Assembly (NCBI RefSeq): GCF_023734095.1 | Contig: NZ_AP024620.1 | Coordinates: forward strand, 2,104,501-2,168,500 | Direction of reading: 5' to 3' | DNA length: 64,000 nucleotides | From: Moorella sp. Hama-1 | GTDB lineage: Bacteria; Bacillota; DSM-521; Neomoorellales; Neomoorellaceae | Shown here: piece after piece, positions 45,327-59,700 of the stretch | Layout: every line of letters begins with the position of its first letter | How positions within the stretch are numbered: position 1 is the first letter of the stretch | Notes under the pieces: model-generated | Database searches by the model: none | Told to the model about the DNA's origin: nothing | What the model saw: the letters and a program-made list of their open reading frames with translations, nothing else | Translations under genes and position numbers: made by a program

Positions 45327-45671
45327 TTAAATCCGGTACTGGGGTATGCCGCCCATACCGGCCTGTCCCATATTGAAGCCACCCGCCATGCCACCCTGCA
45401 GCAGGCGCTGGTGCTCCTGCTGCATCCTTTGGGACAACTGGCTGATCTCCTGCTGGTTGGCCATATCGAGCTGGTACCAACCCCTGGTATGCATCACATC
45501 CCAGACTGCCTTCAGGCAGTTCTGTTCATCCTGGTAGACGGCCATAAAGTCCCGCCGCAGCTGGTCGTTGGCACTCTCGGTAATAGCGGTGTTGTAACAA
45601 CTGGTCAGGAGCTTCTCGCTGGCCAGGCAATCGCTGCAGATGGTTTTGTCATCGAATCCCTGAATAGGCAT
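45327..45671 (-). CDS. Spore coat protein (CotF-like)
   Basis: The 114-aa protein of the coat F type: CSDCLASEKLLTSCYNTAIT, SANDQLRRDFMAVYQDEQNC and WDVMHTRGWYQLDMA, an all-helical bundle, with a Gly/Met-rich tail. It probably belongs to the spore surface. It is cotranscribed with a shorter relative 12 bp upstream. Confidence 0.8.
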   Translation of the reverse strand: MPIQGFDDKTICSDCLASEKLLTSCYNTAITESANDQLRRDFMAVYQDEQNCLKAVWDVMHTRGWYQLDMANQQEISQLSQRMQQEHQRLLQGGMAGGFNMGQAGMGGIPQYRI

Positions 45672-45683
45672 GTACTTCCCTCC

Positions 45684-45881
45684 CTACATCATTTGCTGTC
45701 CGCCCAGGTGGCGAATCAAGGTGTTGTAATGGCGCTGGTGGGCCTGCTGCACCGAAGTAAGGACGTTCCGTAACTGGGGATCGGTGCACTGGGAAGCAAA
45801 GACCCCGAACTTCTGGATCATGAGCATCTCGTTGCTCAGGTTCTCCCGGAGCTGCATGAGCTCCGTCTGGGTCAAACTCAT
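45684..45881 (-). CDS. Small spore-coat-related protein
   Basis: The 65-aa protein MSLTQTELMQLRENLSNEML with CTDPQLRNVLTSVQQAHQRH is a helical relative of the CotF-type partner downstream; such pairs are common in Clostridia. AAGGAGG lies 7 nt before the ATG at 45881. Confidence 0.75.
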   Translation of the reverse strand: MSLTQTELMQLRENLSNEMLMIQKFGVFASQCTDPQLRNVLTSVQQAHQRHYNTLIRHLGGQQMM

Positions 45882-45969
45882 ACGGCATCCTCCTTTGTAA
45901 AAATCTATCAATCGCTTATCATTTTTCCCTGCTGCCCTTAATCTATGCACCTCGCGGAGCCCAAAGAAA

Positions 45970-46001
45970 GAAAAAAACCAGGCCGGGGCGAGGCCCCGGC
46001 C
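45970..46001 (-). terminator. Terminator of the selenocysteine glutaredoxin gene
   Basis: Stem GGCCGGGGC/GCCCCGGCC followed by TGGTTTTTTT on the minus strand. Confidence 0.8.
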
Positions 46002-46091
46002 GATACAAAAATTTTGGCACGCTACCGTTTCAGGATAGCTCCCAGGATAAATAAACGGTGGGTAGCAAAGGGTTGAAGGATGGTACGTCCC

Positions 46092-46325
46092 TTAGTGCAG
46101 GATCTTTTGCAGGCGCGTTTCATCAAAGCCAATCATCACCTGGCCGTTGGCTACCAGGGTGGGTACCGCCATCCGGCCTGTGCGCCGGTACATCTCTTCG
46201 CGAGCCTGTTCATCGGTGGTGATATCCTTTTCCTCGTAACCAACACCATGCTGGGAAAGATACTCTTTCACCGCAGCGCAGCTGGGTCACGTCGGCGTGG
46301 TATAAACAACGACGTTTTCCGGCAT
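46092..46325 (-). CDS. Selenocysteine-containing glutaredoxin-like protein
   Basis: Reading through one in-frame TGA (46289-46287, codon 13) gives a 77-aa glutaredoxin/NrdH-like protein: MPENVVVYTTPT-U-PSC, then AAVKEYLSQHGVGYEEKDI, RMAVPTLV and GFDETRLQKIL. The TGA replaces the first Cys of the CPxC active site; the rest of the fold, including cis-Pro in VPTLV, is intact to TAA at 46092. A SECIS-like hairpin follows the UGA by 23 nt. The ATG is 16 nt from AGGAGG, somewhat far. The alternative is a pseudogene with a nonsense mutation, less likely given the hairpin. Confidence 0.85.
46250..46286 (-). promoter_or_regulatory. SECIS-like element of the Sec glutaredoxin
   Basis: Downstream of UGA the RNA forms GAAAGA-GUA-UCUUUC (46269-46255), with an outer GCUG/CAGC helix (46277-46274 with 46253-46250). 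The loop starts with G and lies 23 nt after UGA. Confidence 0.75.
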
Positions 46326-46393
46326 AGTTAAAATTACTTGCACCTCCTGGTGACTTTTTAATTAGTCTGCCAGGAAGGGAAAACAATTATGCC

Positions 46394-47806
46394 TTACCTG
46401 CGTTTCAACAGGGCACCCAGGGCGGTCCGGGTGCTGCTCAGGGTTACCCCCAGGAAGCCGTGGCCGCGGATAACGCTCTCCAGGGCTTTTAATAAGTAAT
46501 CAATCTCCTCCTCGCTGACAATCAGGGGCGGTTCCAGGCGGATGACGTTAGGATTGTTCAGGGTATAGGCGGTTATTATCTGGTGTTTATTTAAAAGCTC
46601 ACCGGCCACCAGGGAGCCAAAGTACTCGCCTGCCAGTTCGTTGACCTTGCCCCGGGTAAGTTTGTCCAACAGGCCACCCACCGGCTGGTTGAACTCCAGG
46701 CCGATAATCAGGCCGCGGCCACGCACGTCTTTTATTAGATCATATTTTTCCTTTAGCTGCCGCAGCCGCTCCAGGAAATACTCGCCCCGGGCCGCCGCCC
46801 GGCCGGCCAGGTCCTGGTCGAGGATGGCCTGCAGGGCCGCCAGGCCGGCAGCCGCCGCCAGGCTGTTGCCGCCGAAGGTAGAGGTGTGGAGCAGGGCTTT
46901 ATCCATACCGCCATAGGCCCTGTCCCAGACGGCGGCCCGGGCGATGTAAGCACCGATGGGCATGACGCCGCCGCCCAGGGACTTGGCCAGGCACATAATA
47001 TCCGGGACCACCCCTTCATGTTCGCAGGCAAAGAGATAACCCGTGCGGCCGAAGCCCGTCTGGATCTCATCAAAAAGCAGCAGGCTGCCGTAGCGGTCGC
47101 AGAGTTCCCGCGCCCCTTTGAGATAACCGTCATGGGGGACAATTACCCCACCCTCACCCTGGATGGGCTCGACGATAAAGGCGGCCGCGTCCTGGCGCGC
47201 GAGTTTGGCCTCCAGGGCCTCCAGGTCGTCAAAGGGGACGGCCTCACAGCCGGGCAGCAAGGGCCTGAAGGGACGCTGATACTTCTCACGCCCGGTGACG
47301 GACAGGGAACCAAAACTCTTGCCATGAAAGGAATTATGGCAGTAAATTATCTTCTCCCGGCCGGTGGCCGCCCGGGCGAGCTTCAGGGCGCCTTCTACCG
47401 TCTCGGTACCGCTGTTGCTGAAAAAAACCCGCTCCAGGTCGCCAGGGGTAATCATGGCCAGGTTATGGGCCAGGGCCGCCGCCAGGGGATTCAAGGAGGC
47501 CTGGAGCAAATTGGGCCGGCCCATGGCCTCTTTAACTGCCGCCAGGACCGCCGGCGGGTTATGGCCCAAATTCAGGGCGCCGTAGCCGCCCAGGAAATCC
47601 AGGTAACGCTTACCATCGCGATCCCAGACTGCCATCCCCTCGGCCCGGACATAGGCCTTGTCAAAATCCAGCAGGCCCAGCATGCCGGCCAGGCCGGGGT
47701 TGATATAATGGTGGTAAAGATCTCGCGTTTCCTGGCGGCTGAATTTCATGGCCGCCTCCAGCTCGATTAGATTCTTGGCTGTCAATCCTCCCACTTGCCT
47801 TTCCAT
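46394..47806 (-). CDS. Class III aminotransferase (putrescine aminotransferase-like)
   Basis: The 470-aa PLP enzyme has FFSNSGTETVEGALKLARAATG, HNSFHGKSFGSLSVTG, IVEPIQGEGGVIVPHDGYL, LLFDEIQTGFGRTG and the PLP lysine in CLAKSLGGGVMPIGA, with HTSTFGGNSLAAAAGLAAL downstream. The pattern fits putrescine/diamine or 4-aminobutyrate aminotransferases. The start is uncertain: ATG at 47806 lacks a ribosome-binding site, and the ATG of MKFSRQE about 30 codons later has GGAGG five bases upstream. Confidence 0.88.
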   Translation of the reverse strand: MERQVGGLTAKNLIELEAAMKFSRQETRDLYHHYINPGLAGMLGLLDFDKAYVRAEGMAVWDRDGKRYLDFLGGYGALNLGHNPPAVLAAVKEAMGRPNLLQASLNPLAAALAHNLAMITPGDLERVFFSNSGTETVEGALKLARAATGREKIIYCHNSFHGKSFGSLSVTGREKYQRPFRPLLPGCEAVPFDDLEALEAKLARQDAAAFIVEPIQGEGGVIVPHDGYLKGARELCDRYGSLLLFDEIQTGFGRTGYLFACEHEGVVPDIMCLAKSLGGGVMPIGAYIARAAVWDRAYGGMDKALLHTSTFGGNSLAAAAGLAALQAILDQDLAGRAAARGEYFLERLRQLKEKYDLIKDVRGRGLIIGLEFNQPVGGLLDKLTRGKVNELAGEYFGSLVAGELLNKHQIITAYTLNNPNVIRLEPPLIVSEEEIDYLLKALESVIRGHGFLGVTLSSTRTALGALLKRR

Positions 47807-47979
47807 TGAATGTAGGGGAAGCGCCCGCTCATGTCCCTCATGGGTATCAGCCGGTGACCGGGGCGGCGTAAAAAAATAAATGACCCTAAAGGGCCTTCCC
47901 TTTAAGGCCATTTTACCATTCCTACCCTGGCCTGTTCAATGGGTCCTGGGGGATGCGGCCGGGGCAGCCCGGCTCCGGG

Positions 47980-51422: not shown

Positions 51423-51956
51423 CTATTGATTTTTAGGCCCGGCGCCCGGCAGTCCTGCCGGCGGCGTGTAAACCCTTTGAGCCAGCTCACTATCCAGCAT
51501 CAACAAGCCCATACCGTCATTACCAATGAGGTCCAGCTTATGCAGGATCTTGACCAGGGTCTCCTCTTCCTCGGCCTGCTCGGTGATATACCATTGCAGG
51601 AAGGTACTGGTGGTATGATCCCGGACCGCCACGGCAGCCTCATAGAGTTCGTAAAAGGCGGCGGTCACTGTTCTTTCATGGGCCAGGGCGGCTTTAAATA
51701 CCGCCGCCGGATCCTGGTAAGCGGCCTCCGGTTGCGGGATCGCCCCCAGGGTGACCTGGCCGCCGATTTTATGGACATAATTAAATAGATTCACGCCATG
51801 ATCCAGCTCCTCCTGGAACTGGACATGAAAGAAATGGGCCATGCCGTCCAGGTTTTTGTTGGCTAGATATGCCTCCATGGCCAGGTACAGGTAGGCGGAA
51901 TAGAATTCCCTGGTTATCTGTTCATTTAATTGGGCCAGCAACTTGGCATCAGCCAT
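51423..51956 (-). CDS. ftn: Non-heme ferritin
   Basis: The 177-aa ferritin has the four-helix di-iron site: Glu in NEQITREFYSAYLYLAMEAY, the EELDHG pair in FQEELDHGVNLFNYVH, AHERTVTAAFYELYEAA and QWYITEQAEEEETL. It stores iron and limits Fenton chemistry, in keeping with the surrounding redox genes. Confidence 0.93.
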   Translation of the reverse strand: MADAKLLAQLNEQITREFYSAYLYLAMEAYLANKNLDGMAHFFHVQFQEELDHGVNLFNYVHKIGGQVTLGAIPQPEAAYQDPAAVFKAALAHERTVTAAFYELYEAAVAVRDHTTSTFLQWYITEQAEEEETLVKILHKLDLIGNDGMGLLMLDSELAQRVYTPPAGLPGAGPKNQ

Positions 51957-52056
51957 ACTAACAGATCCTTTCTTGATTGCCTTGTTTTAAGATGCCGCCC
52001 GGCGGCGGATGTCCTGTTTATTATGCGCGGGCAAGTTATAGCTATACTTGCCGGCA

Positions 52057-52482
52057 CTACTTCACAATCGTTACCGGCACCTTGACGTTATGCAACACTT
52101 TGTAGGTGACACTGCCCAGGATCATCCCCTTGAAGGGGCTTAACCCCCTGCTGCCCATGACCACCCTGTCAATGGCATTATCCTCAACGTAAGCGGTAAT
52201 GGCCGTCCCCGGGTCGCCGGTTACCATCTCCGTTTTTACTTCCACCCCGGCGTCTTTAAAAACCTGGCGCGCCTTGACCAGGACCTCCCCGAATTGTTCC
52301 TGGCATTGCTTGCTCAATAATTCACCATCCAGGGCATAGCCTTCAATATAGCGGGTTTCGTAGTGGCAGGCCACCGCCAGCAACGTTACTTCCACCGTAG
52401 GATGGTTTTTGACCATCTGCAGGGCATAATCTACCGCCCGCATGGAGTTATCGGAACCATCAACCGGAACCAGTACTTTCAT
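52057..52482 (-). CDS. Universal stress protein UspA
   Basis: The 141-aa UspA-fold protein has KVLVPVDGSDNSMRAVDYAL at the N-terminus and the ATP-binding GSRGLSPFKGMILGSVTYKVL at the C-terminus. It is preceded, about 115 nt upstream, by a sigma-H-like promoter that it shares in sequence with the glutaredoxin-FTR operon. Confidence 0.92.
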   Translation of the reverse strand: MKVLVPVDGSDNSMRAVDYALQMVKNHPTVEVTLLAVACHYETRYIEGYALDGELLSKQCQEQFGEVLVKARQVFKDAGVEVKTEMVTGDPGTAITAYVEDNAIDRVVMGSRGLSPFKGMILGSVTYKVLHNVKVPVTIVK

Positions 52483-52585
52483 CTTGAATTGCTCCTTTCG
52501 CTGCTAATTATGAGGTAAAATAGTTAATCTCCTGGAAGTCCGGTCCCTTGCTACGGTGCCGTTACCTTCCCTTTTTTAGTAGGAG

Positions 52586-52630
52586 TTACTATTTGCATTT
52601 ACTATTCGGCGCCAATCCTCTTTTTCCTGC
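52586..52630 (-). promoter_or_regulatory. Sigma-H-like promoter of uspA with 13-bp element
   Basis: Minus strand: GCAGGAAAA (52630-52622), 11 bp, GCCGAATAG (52610-52602), matching sigma-H consensus RnAGGAwWW-N11/12-RnnGAATww. Directly downstream is ATGCAAATAGTAA (52598-52586), also found at the glutaredoxin promoter. Confidence 0.7.
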
Positions 52631-52679
52631 TGGTTGATAAAAATTTTTTCGGCTCAGGTCTTTGCTGATTATTCCCCAG

Positions 52680-53201
52680 CTACCCTTCTTGTTCATCAGC
52701 GGCGAAAAGCTGCTGAATTAGCGCCCCACCAAAGGCAGGTAAATCGCTCGGCTGGCGCGAGGTGACCAGCCTGCCGTCGATTACCACCTGCTGGTCGACA
52801 ACGATCGCCCCTGCCTGCCGCAGCTCCGCCTGGACGCTGCGATAAGCCGTCATTTTACGACCGGCCGCCAGGCCGGCGCTGATTAACACCTGGGGACCGT
52901 GGCAAATGGCGGCAATTAATTTCTCCTGCTGGTAAAAGGCCCGGGTCAAGTCAATTACGGCCTGGTTGGTGCGGAGGGCTTGCGGCGCCCGGCCGCCGGG
53001 GATTACCAAAGCGTCGTAAAGACCAGGATCTACATCTGCCAGGGCCAGGTTGGCCGGGCATTGATAGCCATGCTTGCCTTTAATGGTCCGGGCCTGGTCG
53101 GTCGCTAGATCTACTTCCAGGCCGGCTTCCTGTATACGGTAATAAGGGTAAAACAGCTCTAGATCCTCAAAACCGTCAGCGCTAAGCAGCAAAACGCGCA
53201 A
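52680..53201 (-). CDS. DJ-1/PfpI-family protein
   Basis: The 173-aa protein has the nucleophile elbow AAICHGPQVLISAG (Cys-His), an early Glu in GFEDLELFYPYY and DALVIPGGRAPQ. It is close to the PfpI/YhbO group, which acts as glyoxalase- or deglycase-like stress proteins; the exact activity is unsettled. Confidence 0.9.
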   Translation of the reverse strand: MRVLLLSADGFEDLELFYPYYRIQEAGLEVDLATDQARTIKGKHGYQCPANLALADVDPGLYDALVIPGGRAPQALRTNQAVIDLTRAFYQQEKLIAAICHGPQVLISAGLAAGRKMTAYRSVQAELRQAGAIVVDQQVVIDGRLVTSRQPSDLPAFGGALIQQLFAADEQEG

Positions 53202-53422
53202 GAATAATCATCCTCCTCCAGGGGTAGCATTACCTCTTGAATCATCACCCTGGTAATTCTCCGGCGAATTGGTAGTATGGCTTCGAGAAAAAATTTCACG
53301 CGCTCCGGGAGCCGCAGTTCTGGCTGGTCGCAGGGAATAGGCTGCCGGAGCCACGCAACTCTTCCCTGTCTGATCTCAGCATAGTGGCTTGCTACCTTAG
53401 CGGCAGAAAGGGGTGCCCAATC

Positions 53423-53785
53423 TTAGGCAAGCCCCAAATACTCTTTATACCGCGCTGCCTCAAAACCAACCAGTAGGCTGGTACCTTCACTCAGGAGCGG
53501 GCGGACCATTATCCGGGGATAGTCGTGGATTAACTGGGCGATCTCTTCCGCCCCCATGTGTTCCAGGTCCGGTTGGACCTTTTTAAATAGTTGACTCTTA
53601 GTATTAACCATACCGGCGGCCGGAAAACCTCCCCGGGCCGCCAGTTCCAGTACTTCGGCAACGGCCAGGGGCTCTTTCTCCAGATCCCGGTAAGTGTAGC
53701 GCACGTTATTAGCGGAAAGCCACGCTTTCGCCTTCTGGCAGGTCGTTCACCTGCTTACGCAGTAAAAGACGAATTCTTTGGCCAT
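53423..53785 (-). CDS. Selenocysteine-containing ArsC/Spx-like protein
   Basis: Reading through the in-frame TGA at 53749-53747 (codon 13) yields 120 aa: MAKEFVFYCVSR-U-TTC, then QKAKAWLSANNVRYTYRDLE, NTKSQLFKKV, RPLLSEGTSLLVGFEAARY. This is a complete ArsC/Spx fold in which Sec takes the place of the catalytic Cys of the CxxC motif. The ATG has GAGGAG 8 nt upstream, better than any start after the TGA, which would remove the active site. A SECIS-like hairpin follows. The role is likely thiol reduction of arsenate or protein disulfides. Confidence 0.85.
53712..53746 (-). promoter_or_regulatory. SECIS-like element of the Sec ArsC/Spx protein
   Basis: The hairpin GAAAGC-GUG-GCUUUC (53729-53715), extended by GC/GC pairs after a bulge, begins its loop 23 nt after the UGA. 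It matches the glutaredoxin element with one compensatory pair change. Confidence 0.75.
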
Positions 53786-53913
53786 TGCTATCACTCCTCA
53801 ATCTCATTCTCCCCTTCCGGAAATCTGGTGCCATGGTAATCTGCTTGCAAGCGGTCAACCAGACCATCGCAGCGAGGGCGACTGGCGGGAATCCTGGTAG
53901 CGAGTCAGGATGC

Positions 53914-54336
53914 TTACCGGGCTGGTGCGCGCCCGGCCGGGCCGGGCAGGTTAAACAGTCCACACCAGCAGCGGCCCTCTTTATGCACCCTGTTCGACCG
54001 GGCGTCGAGGCAGGGACAGATATTTTCCGGCACGTTATCATAACGGCAGGGACAGAAAAAATCACCGTAGCGTTGCTGTTTCTTCAATAGACCGTCGATG
54101 AACAACTCCTTGTCTTCGTTAAAAACATAACCGCGTAACCGGGCGAAGTTGTCAACCCGCGCAGTTATTTCCGTCCTGGGAGCCTGGGGCAGTTTGCGGA
54201 CCTGTAGTTCCGGCGCCCCAGTCGTTATTTCCAAACTGGCGCCGCATATGGGGCAGATCAACACCTGACCGGGTCCCCCGGCATCCCGAAAGACGAACGT
54301 CGCCCTGCACACAGGGCAAAAAATTTTACTGCTCAT
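53914..54336 (-). CDS. Ferredoxin:thioredoxin reductase-like protein with zinc ribbon
   Basis: The 140-aa protein fuses an N-terminal zinc-ribbon or rubredoxin-like knuckle (CPVC at 7-10, CPIC at about 28-31) to a domain with three CxC pairs: FFCPCR, ICPC and RCWCGLF. The latter is the arrangement of the FTR catalytic subunit, whose [4Fe-4S] cluster and disulfide pass ferredoxin electrons to a thiol protein. It overlaps the glutaredoxin gene by 11 bp, so the glutaredoxin is the probable partner. Confidence 0.8.
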   Translation of the reverse strand: MSSKIFCPVCRATFVFRDAGGPGQVLICPICGASLEITTGAPELQVRKLPQAPRTEITARVDNFARLRGYVFNEDKELFIDGLLKKQQRYGDFFCPCRYDNVPENICPCLDARSNRVHKEGRCWCGLFNLPGPAGRAPAR

Positions 54337-54577
54337 TGCTTAGCGCCGCCAGGATTTCCTCCCGGTGATAACCCCTGATCACCCTATCGTTGATCACGAT
54401 TACCGGGAAGGATTGCTGGCCGGTCAATTTCCGCACCTCCTCCAGCGCCCTGGCCGCCACCTCATCCGGGGCCAGGTCAACGTCGATCAAATCATAGGTA
54501 GCCCCTTGCTCGTTAAGCAATTGCTTGGTCTTCATACAGTACGGGCAGGTACTCAGGGCATAAAGTTTAATGGTCAT
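54326..54577 (-). CDS. Glutaredoxin
   Basis: The 83-aa protein has the CPYC active site (LYALSTCPYCMKTKQLL), the cis-Pro in SFPVIVI and RGYHREEI at the end. The ATG at 54577 follows a GGAGAG-type site. It probably takes electrons from the FTR-like protein encoded just downstream. Its promoter is sigma-H-like. Confidence 0.9.
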   Translation of the reverse strand: MTIKLYALSTCPYCMKTKQLLNEQGATYDLIDVDLAPDEVAARALEEVRKLTGQQSFPVIVINDRVIRGYHREEILAALSNEQ

Positions 54578-54705
54578 GATTCTCTCTCCTTTAGGCTCGT
54601 GGTGCCCCAGATAGTTGTTTATAGTTGCTCCGGTAGTATTAAGCTCGAAGCCGGAGCTCCGGGCCTGGTGTTTCCGGGTTCTCCTTTCGGGCTGGGTAGT
54701 AAAAA

Positions 54706-54749
54706 TTACTATTTGCATCTATATTCGCTGTCAACTTCTTTTTTCCTGC
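54706..54749 (-). promoter_or_regulatory. Sigma-H-like promoter of the glutaredoxin-FTR operon
   Basis: Minus strand: GCAGGAAAA (54749-54741), 11 bp, AGCGAATAT (54729-54721), then the shared element ATGCAAATAGTAA (54718-54706). Confidence 0.7.
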
Positions 54750-54890
54750 CGGCCAGCTTACAAATTTTTTGTGGTTCTCTTTTTACCGCGCTTCTAACCG
54801 AGCCCGGTGAGCTTCATGACCTATTATTGTTTTCAACCCATGCTGGTGTAGTCGGGGCGGTATGGACAAGATTTTAGTAATCAGCTCTTC

Positions 54891-54919
54891 TTGACTTCCT
54901 AACTTTGGTAAGGTAAAAT
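54891..54919 (+). promoter_or_regulatory. Promoter of the rubrerythrin gene
   Basis: TTGACT (54891-54896), a 17-bp spacer and TAAAAT (54914-54919). Confidence 0.65.
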
Positions 54920-54949
54920 AGCATCATATTAGTAAAAGGAGTGATTCCT

Positions 54950-55525
54950 ATGTCCTCCCTCAAGGGAACCCGCACGGAGAAAAACCTCCTGACCGCCTTT
55001 GCCGGTGAGTCCCAGGCGCGCAACCGCTATACCTACTTTGCCAGCCAGGCCAAAAAGGAGGGCTACGAACAGATCGCCGCCATCTTCCTGGAAACGGCCG
55101 ACAATGAAAAAGAGCATGCTAAAAGGATTTTTAAATTTCTGGAGGGCGGCGAGGTGGAAATTAGCGCCGCTTTCCCGGCCGGTACCATTGCCAGCACGAC
55201 GGTGAACCTGGGGGCCGCCGCCGCCGGGGAGAATTACGAACATACCATCATGTACCCTGGATTTGCCAATGTCGCCGAGGAGGAAGGTTTTACCGAAATC
55301 GCCGCCGTACTGCGGGCCATCGCCCGGGCGGAAAGGGGCCACGAGGAACGTTACCGCGCCCTGCTGGCCAATATCGAAACCGGCCGTGTTTTTAAACGCG
55401 CGGGGAAGGTATTCTGGCGCTGCCGCAACTGTGGTTACATCCATGAAGGCGACGCCGCGCCGGCGGTATGCCCGGCCTGCGCCCATCCTCAGGCATTCTT
55501 TGAATTACAAGCCCTAAATTATTGA
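54950..55525 (+). CDS. rbr: Rubrerythrin
   Basis: The 191-aa peroxidase of anaerobes has an N-terminal di-iron four-helix domain ([55 protein letters not shown]) and a C-terminal rubredoxin domain ([10 protein letters not shown]...CPACAHPQ). It detoxifies H2O2. The ATG at 54950 follows AGGAG by 8 nt. Confidence 0.96.
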
Positions 55526-55639
55526 GCGAATCTAACACCCTGAGTTCCGCGGAAATTCACGGCTGCGGCTAGTGGCTGTTACAGGCTGCAGCCAGTCCTA
55601 CTGGATTAAACAAGAATCTCCAGGTAGGAATATTCTTCT

Positions 55640-55918
55640 ATGAAGAAGGGAACGGTGGGGTCAATGTCCTGTCCGACAGTAATGGCCATTCTGGTGGACA
55701 AACGGCGGGAGACGGCGGTCCGGGTGCAAGAAATCCTCACCAAATACGGCTGTATCATCCGGACGCGCCTGGGTCTCCACGAAACCGAAGCCTGCAGTGA
55801 TGATGGCTTAATTATCCTGCAACTCTGCGCTCCTGAAGCCCAGGTCCAGCAATTTAAGGATGAGCTCAATGCCCTGGAGCGGGTGAAGGCCGAAGTCATC
55901 AGCTTGGCCTTGGATTAA
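55640..55918 (+). CDS. ACT/TM1266-like small regulator
   Basis: The 92-aa protein resembles the TM1266-type family (ferredoxin-like fold sometimes linked with iron-hydrogenase genes): AILVDKRRETAVRVQEILTK, YGCIIRTRLGLHE, GLIILQLC and a final FKDELNALERVKAEVISL. The start could be 55640 or ATG at 55664 (84 aa). No hydrogenase gene is nearby. Confidence 0.65.
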   Translation: MKKGTVGSMSCPTVMAILVDKRRETAVRVQEILTKYGCIIRTRLGLHETEACSDDGLIILQLCAPEAQVQQFKDELNALERVKAEVISLALD

Positions 55919-55980
55919 TATGAAGAACCGTGATATTAAGGCTACCTGGCGGCGACTCGCTATACATCTCCACCTTATAA

Positions 55981-56022
55981 GGGGAGCTACTCCGTTGTCG
56001 GAACGAGGTAGCCCCCCTTTTA
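55981..56022 (+). terminator. Terminator after the TM1266-like gene
   Basis: Stem GGGGAGCTAC/GGTAGCCCCC followed by CTTTTATG. Confidence 0.65.
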
Positions 56023-56049
56023 TGATGCACCTACCCTGGCTAATTATTT

Positions 56050-56310
56050 CACGGTAGAGGGACCCCCCGGGAACTGGCAATAGCCGGCGTCGCTCATTGA
56101 TTTGAGCGCCGGGAGCAGGGTCAATCCCGACAAAGGTGACCAGCAAATCTGGAGGGACGGCATAGGTAAGCCGGGCTTTAAGATGGACGCTGCCCAACCA
56201 ATTGTATGCCCTTACTGTGTCCCCATCAACAAGGCCCTTTTTCTGCGCCACTTGCAGGCGACGCTGGCTCCGGACCAGGAGATATGATATTCCCTCTGAG
56301 GAGATGGTAC
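56050..56310 (-). pseudogene. C-terminal remnant of a molybdopterin oxidoreductase
   Basis: An open stretch reads GISYLLVRSQRRLQ, then KKGLVDGDTVRAYNWLGSVH with LKARLTYAVPPDLL. This resembles the molybdopterin-dinucleotide-binding domain (..GI.DGD.V.....G...LKA.VT..V.PG). No start or upstream catalytic domain is present. Edges are approximate. Confidence 0.55.
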
Positions 56311-56384
56311 GTTTGGTGATCCAGGGAACCTTATACTATCATTTCCGCGATTTCAAGGCTACGGCGATATATCAGATAATCTGT

Positions 56385-56882
56385 TTATGATGTCCCTCGA
56401 GGGAATGTTTTTTGACATTCGCTAAGAAAACCAATCACCTCGCTAAGATCGGGGAGTTCGTGGATTCCATATACTTTTACCCAGATCACCCTGCCGTCTT
56501 CATCAAGAATGACGTTGGCTCTTTCTGAAAAACCTTCTTTATCCCTGAAAAGACCGTATTCTTTAGCCACGCTGCCGTGCGGCCAAAAATCAGCAAGCAA
56601 GGAGACATTGGCGATTTCCAGGTGCTTGGCCCAGGCATTTTTGGTGGGAACGGCATCTACACTCAGCCCTAAAGGCATTGTCTGCAGGTTTTTAAACTCA
56701 GCCAGTTTGTTTTCCAGAGCTTTCATCTGTTCGGCGCAGACGCTGGTCCAGGCCAGTGGGTGCCAGGAGAGTAAAACCTTTTGACCCCGTAATTTGGATA
56801 AATGTATCGGATTGTTTCGGTTATCCATGAGGGTAAAATCTGGCGCCAGCTCTCCTGTTTTAATCCTTCTCACAGCGTTCAT
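56385..56882 (-). CDS. Peroxiredoxin (AhpC/TSA type)
   Basis: The 165-aa redoxin has the peroxidatic site WHPLAWTSVCAEQM (T-x-x-C), a start APDFTLMDNRNNPIHLS and the C-terminal FSERANVILDEDGRVIW. It lacks an obvious resolving Cys near the C-terminus, suggesting 1-Cys chemistry with an external thiol such as a glutaredoxin. Confidence 0.88.
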   Translation of the reverse strand: MNAVRRIKTGELAPDFTLMDNRNNPIHLSKLRGQKVLLSWHPLAWTSVCAEQMKALENKLAEFKNLQTMPLGLSVDAVPTKNAWAKHLEIANVSLLADFWPHGSVAKEYGLFRDKEGFSERANVILDEDGRVIWVKVYGIHELPDLSEVIGFLSECQKTFPRGTS

Positions 56883-56937
56883 ACTACACCCCCCTTATTA
56901 GATGATTAACTTATTCTTCCTGCCTTATGTTGTTACG

Positions 56938-57537
56938 TTAGCAACCTGGCAGGGATTCATTTTTCTCTCGCAGGGTTCTTGTCCAATCTCTTAAAGATAG
57001 TAATAGATTCCGGATACTGTCTCGGGTCCGCTCATCGGTTAATCGACCGTTTTGATCAAATTTTGCCTGAGCAAAGGGAATAAAAACCTCCGGGTTGTTT
57101 AGAGGATACATGTTCAGGATAACACAGACCTGACGCAAATGATATTGTGCCCGGGCAGTGCCAAAATAACCGGTGGAAGCCCCCATAATGGCCACCGGTT
57201 TTCCGAATAGAGGAGATTGGCCTGGCGGGCGGGAGGCCCAGTCAAGGGCGTTCTTAAGCACCCCGGGGAGGGAATAATTATACTCGGGCGTAACGATGAA
57301 CAAAGCATCGGCAGCGGCAATGCGGGCCTTGAATTCCCTTACCGTTTCAGGAAACCCCTCAGTCTCTATATCTTCATTGTAAACAGGAATTGCCAATAGA
57401 TCAAAGATCTCCATGGTCATATCCTCGGGAAGAAGTTCTAAGGCTGCCTGTAACGCCGCCCGGTTATAAGAATTTTTACGCAGGCTGCCGGCAAAACCAA
57501 GGACATGAACCGGCTGGAACAAAGTAGGGGCAGTCAA
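56938..57537 (-). CDS. NAD(P)H-dependent FMN reductase
   Basis: The 199-aa flavodoxin-fold protein has FAGSLRKNSYNRAALQAALE (phosphate loop), LFIVTPEYNYSLPGVLKNALDW and MGASTGYFGTARAQYHLRQ. It belongs to the ArsH/ChrR/SsuE-like family of flavin or quinone reductases. Confidence 0.9.
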   Translation of the reverse strand: MTAPTLFQPVHVLGFAGSLRKNSYNRAALQAALELLPEDMTMEIFDLLAIPVYNEDIETEGFPETVREFKARIAAADALFIVTPEYNYSLPGVLKNALDWASRPPGQSPLFGKPVAIMGASTGYFGTARAQYHLRQVCVILNMYPLNNPEVFIPFAQAKFDQNGRLTDERTRDSIRNLLLSLRDWTRTLREKNESLPGC

Positions 57538-57640
57538 ACGCGTTTCTCCTCCCCGTAAGTTTTTCTCGAAGGCATTTCAAGGTATACAGAATTTCCCTAT
57601 CCCGTCTGTCGCGAGAGGGCAATGCTATCTTCCAGGGTTA

Positions 57641-57716
57641 TTAACTGCAGGCGACGTCAAGGAGCATTACGGTTGCAAAGCCCGTCATAGCGCCCATGAT
57701 GACCAAAGCCGTATCG
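57641..57716 (-). pseudogene. Possible C-terminal tail of a ZIP-type metal transporter
   Basis: About 25 codons reading CGDTALVIMGAMTGFATVML and LDVACS resemble the last TM segment of ZIP transporters (..GF..MM.LDVALG). It has no start and abuts the IscU fusion gene. The call rests on this short match only. Confidence 0.3.
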
Positions 57717-57724
57717 CCGCATGG

Positions 57725-58531
57725 TTAAATACTACAGCCTTCACGCATGATTACTACCGCGTCGACAATCAAATCATAGTCATCATCTTCGGCCAGGTCG
57801 TGGATCAGGACCTGCTCCACTTCCTCGTGTCCCTTGATTTCTTTTAGCTGACTCGCAAAAAGCACTTTAACACCAGCTTGCTTTAAGGAGTCGGTGGTTT
57901 CCGGGGCCGACTCCGGCTTGCCGGCTGTCAGGAATATCACCCGGCCGGTATATTTGGTCAAATCCCGGGCCAGCGTAGCTGCCGCGGGGCCGGTATCCAG
58001 CACCAACACCCGCTGGTCTTGCAATATGGCAGGGTCGTCAACGGCGTAGTACACACCCTTGCCCCGATAGGCATCTTCGCCGGCAAAGTTGTTGGCATCG
58101 GGTAACGCTGCTTTAATATCTGTCTGCACCAGCTGACCTTGCCGGGAGCGGTAATTCTGGATAGCCGCATGCAAGGCGTCAGCAGCCAGATTGGAGCAGT
58201 GCATTTTCCGCGGCGGCAGCCCTTCCAGTTCGGTGGCTACATCCTGCCGGGTAATTCTCATGGCTTCATCCAGGGTCTTGCCCTTGGCCATTTCCGTAAT
58301 CATACTGCTGGTAGCGATCGCTGACCCGCAGCCGAAAGTGCGGAACTTAATATCGGCGATGCGGTCATCGGCCACCTGGATATAAATTTCCATTAAGTCA
58401 CCGCAGACCGGATTACCCACCCTGCCGACGGCCACGTTCTCCCCTTCCAGCGTACCCACATTGCGCGGGTTCTGAAAGTGGTCCATGACCCTGGCTGAAT
58501 AGGTGGTGGGTTTGACCTCCATATTGCTCAC
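57725..58531 (-). CDS. IscU-like scaffold fused to a nucleotide-binding-like domain
   Basis: The 268-aa protein has an IscU domain (residues 10-130) with all three cluster cysteines: C43 (VCGD), C68 (FGCGSAIATSSM) and C112 (HCSNLA). After a linker, residues 173-262 resemble the NAD(P)H domain of thioredoxin reductases (RVLVLDTGPAAATLARDL with TKYTGRVIFLT, then a VKVLFASQLKEIKGH..VEQVLIHDL block), but the GxGxxA loop is changed to DTGPAA. It overlaps the IscS-like gene by 4 bp. Confidence 0.85.
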   Translation of the reverse strand: MSNMEVKPTTYSARVMDHFQNPRNVGTLEGENVAVGRVGNPVCGDLMEIYIQVADDRIADIKFRTFGCGSAIATSSMITEMAKGKTLDEAMRITRQDVATELEGLPPRKMHCSNLAADALHAAIQNYRSRQGQLVQTDIKAALPDANNFAGEDAYRGKGVYYAVDDPAILQDQRVLVLDTGPAAATLARDLTKYTGRVIFLTAGKPESAPETTDSLKQAGVKVLFASQLKEIKGHEEVEQVLIHDLAEDDDYDLIVDAVVIMREGCSI

Positions 58532-59700
58532 CCCTTGTTCCCTTGATATAGTGGCGATAATTTACGCAGCCGTTCGACAATGCCCGGTAGTATCTCTAAT
58601 ACCCGGTCGATATCTTCGGCCCTGGTAAATCGTCCGCAGGTGAATTCCAGGGAGCCATGGGCCTCCTCGTGCAATAAACCGATGGATATGAGTGTATGGG
58701 AAGGTTCCAGGGTCCTGGCCGTACAGGCCGACCCGGTCATAGCTGCTACTCCCTGTTGTTTTAGGGACAACAGCAACGATTCCCCTTCCACCCCCTGGAA
58801 ACGGAAATGGGCATTATTGGCCAGGCGCTCCTGCGGGTGCCCGTTCAAAAAGCTCCGGGGAATAGTTGCCAGGACACCGGTAATTAGCTTATCCCGATAA
58901 CCTCGCAGGCGAGGCACCTCCAAGGCCATTTCCTGGGACATAATCGCCGCCGCCCTGGCCATCCCTACAATTCCCGGGATGTTTTCCGATCCCGATCGCA
59001 ATCCTCTTTCTTGACCGCCACCAATCAGCAATGGTTTCAACCGCAGTCCCCGGCGCACATAAAGCGCCCCCACACCCTTGGGACCGTAAATGTCGTTAGC
59101 AGATAAGGTTAAAAGGTCGATCTGATCCCGCTGCACGTCAAGTGATAGCAAGCCTTCCGCGGCTACCCCATCACAATGGAAGACAATATTTTGGGACCGG
59201 GCCAGGGCGCCGATTGCGGCAATGGGCTGCACCGTACCGATTTCATTGCTGGCATAGCCCACCGAAATCAAAATCGTTTCCGGGGTAATACGTGATTTAA
59301 GCTTACTTAAAGAAACCCGGCCGTACTGGTCCACCGGAACCCGGGAGATTTTGAAACCACTCTGTTCCAGATACTTGGCGATATTATGGATGGAGATATG
59401 TTCGATTTCGGAAATGATAATGTGTTTGCCCTTATCCTGATTACGTAATGCATAACCTATCAGCGCCAGATTGTTGGCTTCCGTTGCCCCGGAGGTGAAA
59501 ATAATCTCATCACTGGTGGCGTTAATCCACGCGGCCACCGTTTCCCGGGCCTCTTCCAGGGCTGCTGTGGCCGCATCCCCTTCGGCGTGCAGTGAGGAAG
59601 GATTGCCAAACTGCTCATGAAAATAAGGCAGCATTGCTGCTAACACGCGGGGGTCCACCGGCTTGGCGGATTGATAGTCCAAATAAATACTCATGGCCAT
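58528..59700 (-). CDS. IscS/NifS-like protein lacking the PLP lysine
   Basis: The 390-aa fold-type I protein aligns end to end with cysteine desulfurases: FTSGATEANNLAL, His101 in SEIEHISI, CDG (Asp177), IYGPKGVGALYVRRG, GSENIPGIVG and the sulfur-carrying loop GSACTARTLEPSH with C326. The Schiff-base lysine motif SAHK is SAND (200-203), so Lys is Asp, and the N-terminal DNAATT is DYQSAK. It resembles the Archaeoglobus IscS, which also has Asp there. It may serve as a cluster-assembly partner of the IscU fusion and not as a desulfurase. Confidence 0.9.
   Translation of the reverse strand: MAMSIYLDYQSAKPVDPRVLAAMLPYFHEQFGNPSSLHAEGDAATAALEEARETVAAWINATSDEIIFTSGATEANNLALIGYALRNQDKGKHIIISEIEHISIHNIAKYLEQSGFKISRVPVDQYGRVSLSKLKSRITPETILISVGYASNEIGTVQPIAAIGALARSQNIVFHCDGVAAEGLLSLDVQRDQIDLLTLSANDIYGPKGVGALYVRRGLRLKPLLIGGGQERGLRSGSENIPGIVGMARAAAIMSQEMALEVPRLRGYRDKLITGVLATIPRSFLNGHPQERLANNAHFRFQGVEGESLLLSLKQQGVAAMTGSACTARTLEPSHTLISIGLLHEEAHGSLEFTCGRFTRAEDIDRVLEILPGIVERLRKLSPLYQGNKG

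Follow-up and report, generated by a model that had tools for sequence, protein, structure and literature searches.

A glutaredoxin gene of Moorella sp. Hama-1 whose in-frame UGA almost certainly encodes an active-site selenocysteine

Selenoprotein glutaredoxins have been reviewed previously (PMC13188914), and a glutaredoxin is among the six selenoproteins reported for Moorella thermoacetica (Zhang et al. 2006; PMC1794560, Table 3). In Clostridium (Alkaliphilus) oremlandii, cGrx1 (PDB 7C10, 7C12) is a native selenoprotein with catalytic residue 13 and resolving Cys 16 (PMC7642778). Within a window of 64,000 nucleotides from Moorella sp. Hama-1, the whole stretch of DNA analysed here, we identified a minus-strand gene whose product is of the same kind as the glutaredoxin listed for its relative M. 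thermoacetica. The two are probably orthologous, a claim kept at that strength because Table 3 of the 2006 study gives no sequence. The best structural match to the AlphaFold model of the Hama-1 protein (pLDDT 92) is cGrx1, at 1.0 A and 43-44% identity, and both proteins have Sec13, resolving Cys16 and a UPxC motif. They differ in the motif itself, which reads UPHC in cGrx1 and UPSC in the Hama-1 protein, and in that cGrx1 is the proposed reductant of a selenoprotein MsrA, whereas the present analysis identified no partner.

Translated with TGA as selenocysteine (U), the minus-strand product reads MPENVVVYTTPTUPSCAAVKEYLSQHGVGYEEKDITTDEQAREEMYRRTGRMAVPTLVANGQVMIGFDETRLQKILH, followed by TAA; its N-terminal stretch before the selenocysteine is MPENVVVYTTPT, after which the chain continues U-PSCAAVKEYL. 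This 77-residue frame contains a single TGA, at codon 13 (46289..46287), which replaces the first, catalytic Cys of CPxC, and the plus-strand frame of 46092-46325 is unrelated. The translation agrees with an earlier sequence-only reading, which had placed the TGA on the first Cys of CPxC between the flanks TPT and PSC and had recognised the cis-Pro strand (AVPT in the translation) and the 77-aa length, leaving the DNA strand unstated. The Shine-Dalgarno-like AGGAGG lies at a spacing that is long in this genome (17 nt, versus about 8 nt in several relatives), a feature that counts against the Sec-glutaredoxin explanation. In the region 46326-46348 of the same strand, an in-frame ATT at 46334 would provide normal Shine-Dalgarno spacing, so the glutaredoxin could start 3 codons upstream, at that ATT.

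Table 1. Features of the Sec-glutaredoxin gene and its neighbourhood, in window coordinates
Feature	Position	Strand	Basis
Sec-glutaredoxin gene, 77 aa	46092..46325	-	TGA=U translation, Pfam PF00462, NCBIfam, AlphaFold
Start ATG; TAA stop	46325; 46094-46092	-	TGA=U translation
UGA codon 13, read as selenocysteine, catalytic residue of UPSC	46287..46289	-	Translation; conserved in 48 loci
Cys16 codon, resolving Cys	46278..46280	-	Translation; invariant in homologue alignment
AGGAGG, Shine-Dalgarno-like, 17 nt before ATG	46343..46348	-	Sequence
SECIS hairpin GGUGAAAGAGUAUCUUUCCC; bulged U, 6-bp upper stem, apical loop GUA (46263-46261)	46253..46272	-	Folding; frozen synonymous codons; pair conservation
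Intrinsic terminator after glutaredoxin, 9 G-C pairs and T run	45981..46001	-	Sequence
Class-III aminotransferase, upstream conserved neighbour	46394..47911	-	PF00202; synteny
Small Coat F-like protein, downstream conserved neighbour	45684..45881	-	Weak match below Pfam cut-off; synteny
Coat F domain protein, downstream conserved neighbour	45327..45671	-	PF07875 E=1e-21; synteny

Domain analysis matched the 77-aa product to Pfam Glutaredoxin (PF00462, E=6.9e-21). It exceeds both relevant NCBIfam curated cut-offs, those of NF041212, Uxx-star (seleno)protein (69.4 bits vs 66), and of TIGR02196, YruB (92.1 bits vs 88.55), with nothing notable setting it apart from either family, and scores far below the cut-offs of the narrower UXX-star families 1-3 (NF041114, NF041211, NF047338). 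The thioredoxin fold, [U/C]PxC, cis-Pro and G-[FY] motif that go with a YruB / Uxx-star assignment are all present. The earlier expectation that ordinary gene calling would miss the gene was overstated: annotation need not miss it, because curated family models such as NF041212 exist and a Sec-glutaredoxin had been reported from Moorella as early as 2006.

When 199 related genomes were searched at the protein level, the gene was recovered in 10/10 other genomes of the genus and in most of the family, and the further frame breaks sought in close relatives were not found, each copy carrying that one TGA and being otherwise free of stops. Among 51 individually examined loci (the Hama-1 locus included, the weaker TGA-bearing matches not all among them), TGA occupies exactly the equivalent of codon 13 in 48, down to about 45% identity, and a Cys codon replaces it in the other three (L040, L058, L060). 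These three loci and a paralogue, L039, carry TGT or TGC at the Sec codon, thereby supplying the Cys homologues for which the sequence-only reading had proposed a search. A conserved redox Cys position that is occupied by an in-frame UGA, and for which Cys homologues exist, is the pattern that marks a bacterial selenoprotein.

Comparison with the two closest relatives gives dN 0.06-0.09 and dS about 0.6 for the codons that follow the TGA; for those that precede it, only 9 in number, dN is 0.05 and dS 0.3-0.6. Because the same codon is TGA in 48 loci, and because dN amounts to about one tenth of dS beyond the TGA and is also lower than dS ahead of it, the TGA does not reflect chance, as had been argued from the sequence. 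TGA is one base from the Cys codons TGC and TGT, and a single nonsense mutation or miscalled base would suffice to place it in a conventional Cys glutaredoxin gene; such a pseudogene or sequencing error is refuted by recurrence of the TGA in every other genome of the genus and in many other genera, and the low dN beyond the TGA and the SECIS imprint in synonymous sites also weigh against it, leaving it a negligible probability.

The TGA form is associated with selB. Counting those of the 199 genomes whose match reaches E<=1e-10, selB scores above cut-off in 43/44 with the TGA form, the exception being a 58% complete genome, versus 7/18 with the Cys form (Fisher p=7e-7, a significance inflated because genomes share ancestry). 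Genus g31 (loci L035, L037) contains both situations: the Sec form occurs together with selB in G041 and G084, and G184 has a Cys glutaredoxin only, with selB not found above cut-off. Because G041 also has a Cys paralogue, this pattern may represent loss rather than conversion.

Under the published bSECIS model (PMC13188914), the loop should carry a G among its first two positions, the stem should span 4-16 bp, the spacing should be 16-37 nt and the MFE should be <= -7.5 kcal/mol; the hairpin downstream of the Hama-1 UGA falls within all of these limits. This candidate SECIS, the GAAAGAGUAUCUUUC hairpin, begins 14 nt after the UGA, with a UGA-to-apical-loop distance of 23 nt and a GU-initial loop, and its folding energy is -7.6 kcal/mol for the 25-nt hairpin and -19.0 for 49 nt. 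Across 40 non-redundant TGA homologues, codons +5 to +11, and exactly these, are frozen at their synonymous sites (GTG 39/39, GAG 40/40, CTT 38/40), whereas the flanking codons vary as expected. Hairpins from 47/48 sequences are more stable than their codon-shuffled (synonymous) versions (p<0.05; mean z -3.6), and five of the six upper-stem pairs are kept in at least 46/48 sequences, the sixth in 44.

Two features of the same 48 sequences count against the Sec explanation, namely the poor conservation of the lower pairs 17-36 and 18-35 and the pairing of the bulged U with A in half of them. With so little variation in the hairpin sequence there is almost no covariation, and support for the hairpin therefore comes from synonymous-site freezing and folding energy; an Rfam scan of the glutaredoxin locus returned chance matches only. 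A sequence constraint that exceeds protein need would also suit a hairpin serving mainly as another RNA signal, for example a regulatory one, with the UGA ending a 12-residue leader. However, the 64 downstream codons are under purifying selection as protein, and the confident AlphaFold fold takes in the 12 N-terminal residues as strand 1, which makes such a leader extremely improbable. The locus L040:3001-3228 of Pelotomaculum sp. PtaU1.Bin035, with TGT (Cys) in place of the Sec codon, still has an intact SECIS-like hairpin, GUGAAGGAGUUUCUUUCAC; Cys probably replaced Sec there recently, leaving the SECIS as a fossil.

The search for selA, selB and selC suggested by the sequence-only reading located all three in the genome, together with selD. 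The tRNA-Sec (selC) scores 72.2 bits with ARAGORN anticodon TCA, and SelA, SelB, SelD and tRNA-Sec all lie above curated or gathering cut-offs. Because the tRNA-Sec search has poor specificity below cut-off (14/14 control genomes match), only matches above gathering score, ARAGORN and selB above cut-off were used. SelD is itself interrupted by an in-frame TGA (SCSSG-U-AGK). The C-terminal half of SelB aligns over its full length with the crystal structures 1LVA and 2UWM, and matches the solved fragment 1LVA end to end over 257 residues, with no gaps and many substitutions. We take 1LVA to originate from M. thermoacetica; if so, this divergence indicates that the organism studied here is a related but distinct species.

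These findings also bear on whether ribosomes might decode the UGA as Cys or Trp, or simply leak past it, with no dedicated insertion of Sec. With Cys in place the protein would be chemically competent, like its Cys homologues, and sulphur can enter the Sec pathway in some organisms. However, generic recoding needs no hairpin, and the complete sel genes, the frozen hairpin and the association of the TGA form with selB point to SelB-directed Sec, so that such a reading has only a very slight chance of being correct.

Collectively, the sel genes, the conserved TGA and the SECIS-like hairpin with its frozen synonymous sites support the selenocysteine glutaredoxin proposed from the sequence, and codon 13 UGA almost certainly specifies the active-site selenocysteine of a small redox protein. 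During translation, SelB with Sec-tRNA(Sec) would bind the hairpin and insert Sec at position 13; the machinery and the hairpin behind this predicted insertion can be read from the sequence. By analogy with cGrx1 and from the UPxC motif, the Sec13 selenolate would attack a substrate disulfide or oxidised thiol, and Cys16 would resolve the mixed bond, giving an Se-S bond. Re-reduction would probably be by a thioredoxin-reductase-type flavoprotein rather than glutathione, because two members of the thioredoxin reductase family score above cut-off in the genome and a gshF-type gene was not found there; a flavoprotein-reduced, glutathione-independent cycle is thus most likely, and glutathione dependence is doubtful. 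Likely clients, the weakest step of this scheme, would be oxidised thiol proteins such as peroxiredoxins, two of which are present in the genome; gene order around the glutaredoxin shows no link to any reductase or client. We consider this explanation highly probable, namely a genuine YruB / Uxx-star selenoprotein with SelB-directed Sec13, a probable re-reduction by a flavoprotein and likely oxidised-thiol clients.

The order aminotransferase / Sec-glutaredoxin / Coat F-like / Coat F (45327-47911) is conserved across the family and recurs in neighbouring families; it holds at L025 and, for the Coat F genes, at L034. Co-transcription of the glutaredoxin with the Coat F genes was set aside as unlikely because a strong terminator separates them. 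That the conserved order reflects a selenoprotein role in spore formation or spore-coat disulfide chemistry is a long shot; if true, it would place a selenoprotein in a new setting. Elsewhere in the window, at 53914-54718 on the minus strand, the gene of another glutaredoxin, this one of Cys type (TCPYC), overlaps one encoding a ferredoxin-thioredoxin-reductase beta-like domain and a LysW-like zinc ribbon, possibly a ferredoxin-driven Cys glutaredoxin pair. The region 51423-59700 carries redox and oxygen-defence genes (ferritin, universal stress protein, DJ-1/PfpI, rubrerythrin, peroxiredoxin, FMN reductase, NifU-like, NifS-like).

The Sec-glutaredoxin is sound but already known, its family, motif, Sec insertion and occurrence in Moorella having been described before, and little therefore changes beyond annotation. 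A selenoprotein call made from raw sequence is nevertheless confirmed by several independent lines, and the synonymous-site imprint provides a clean, widely conserved case of a SECIS overlapping coding sequence.
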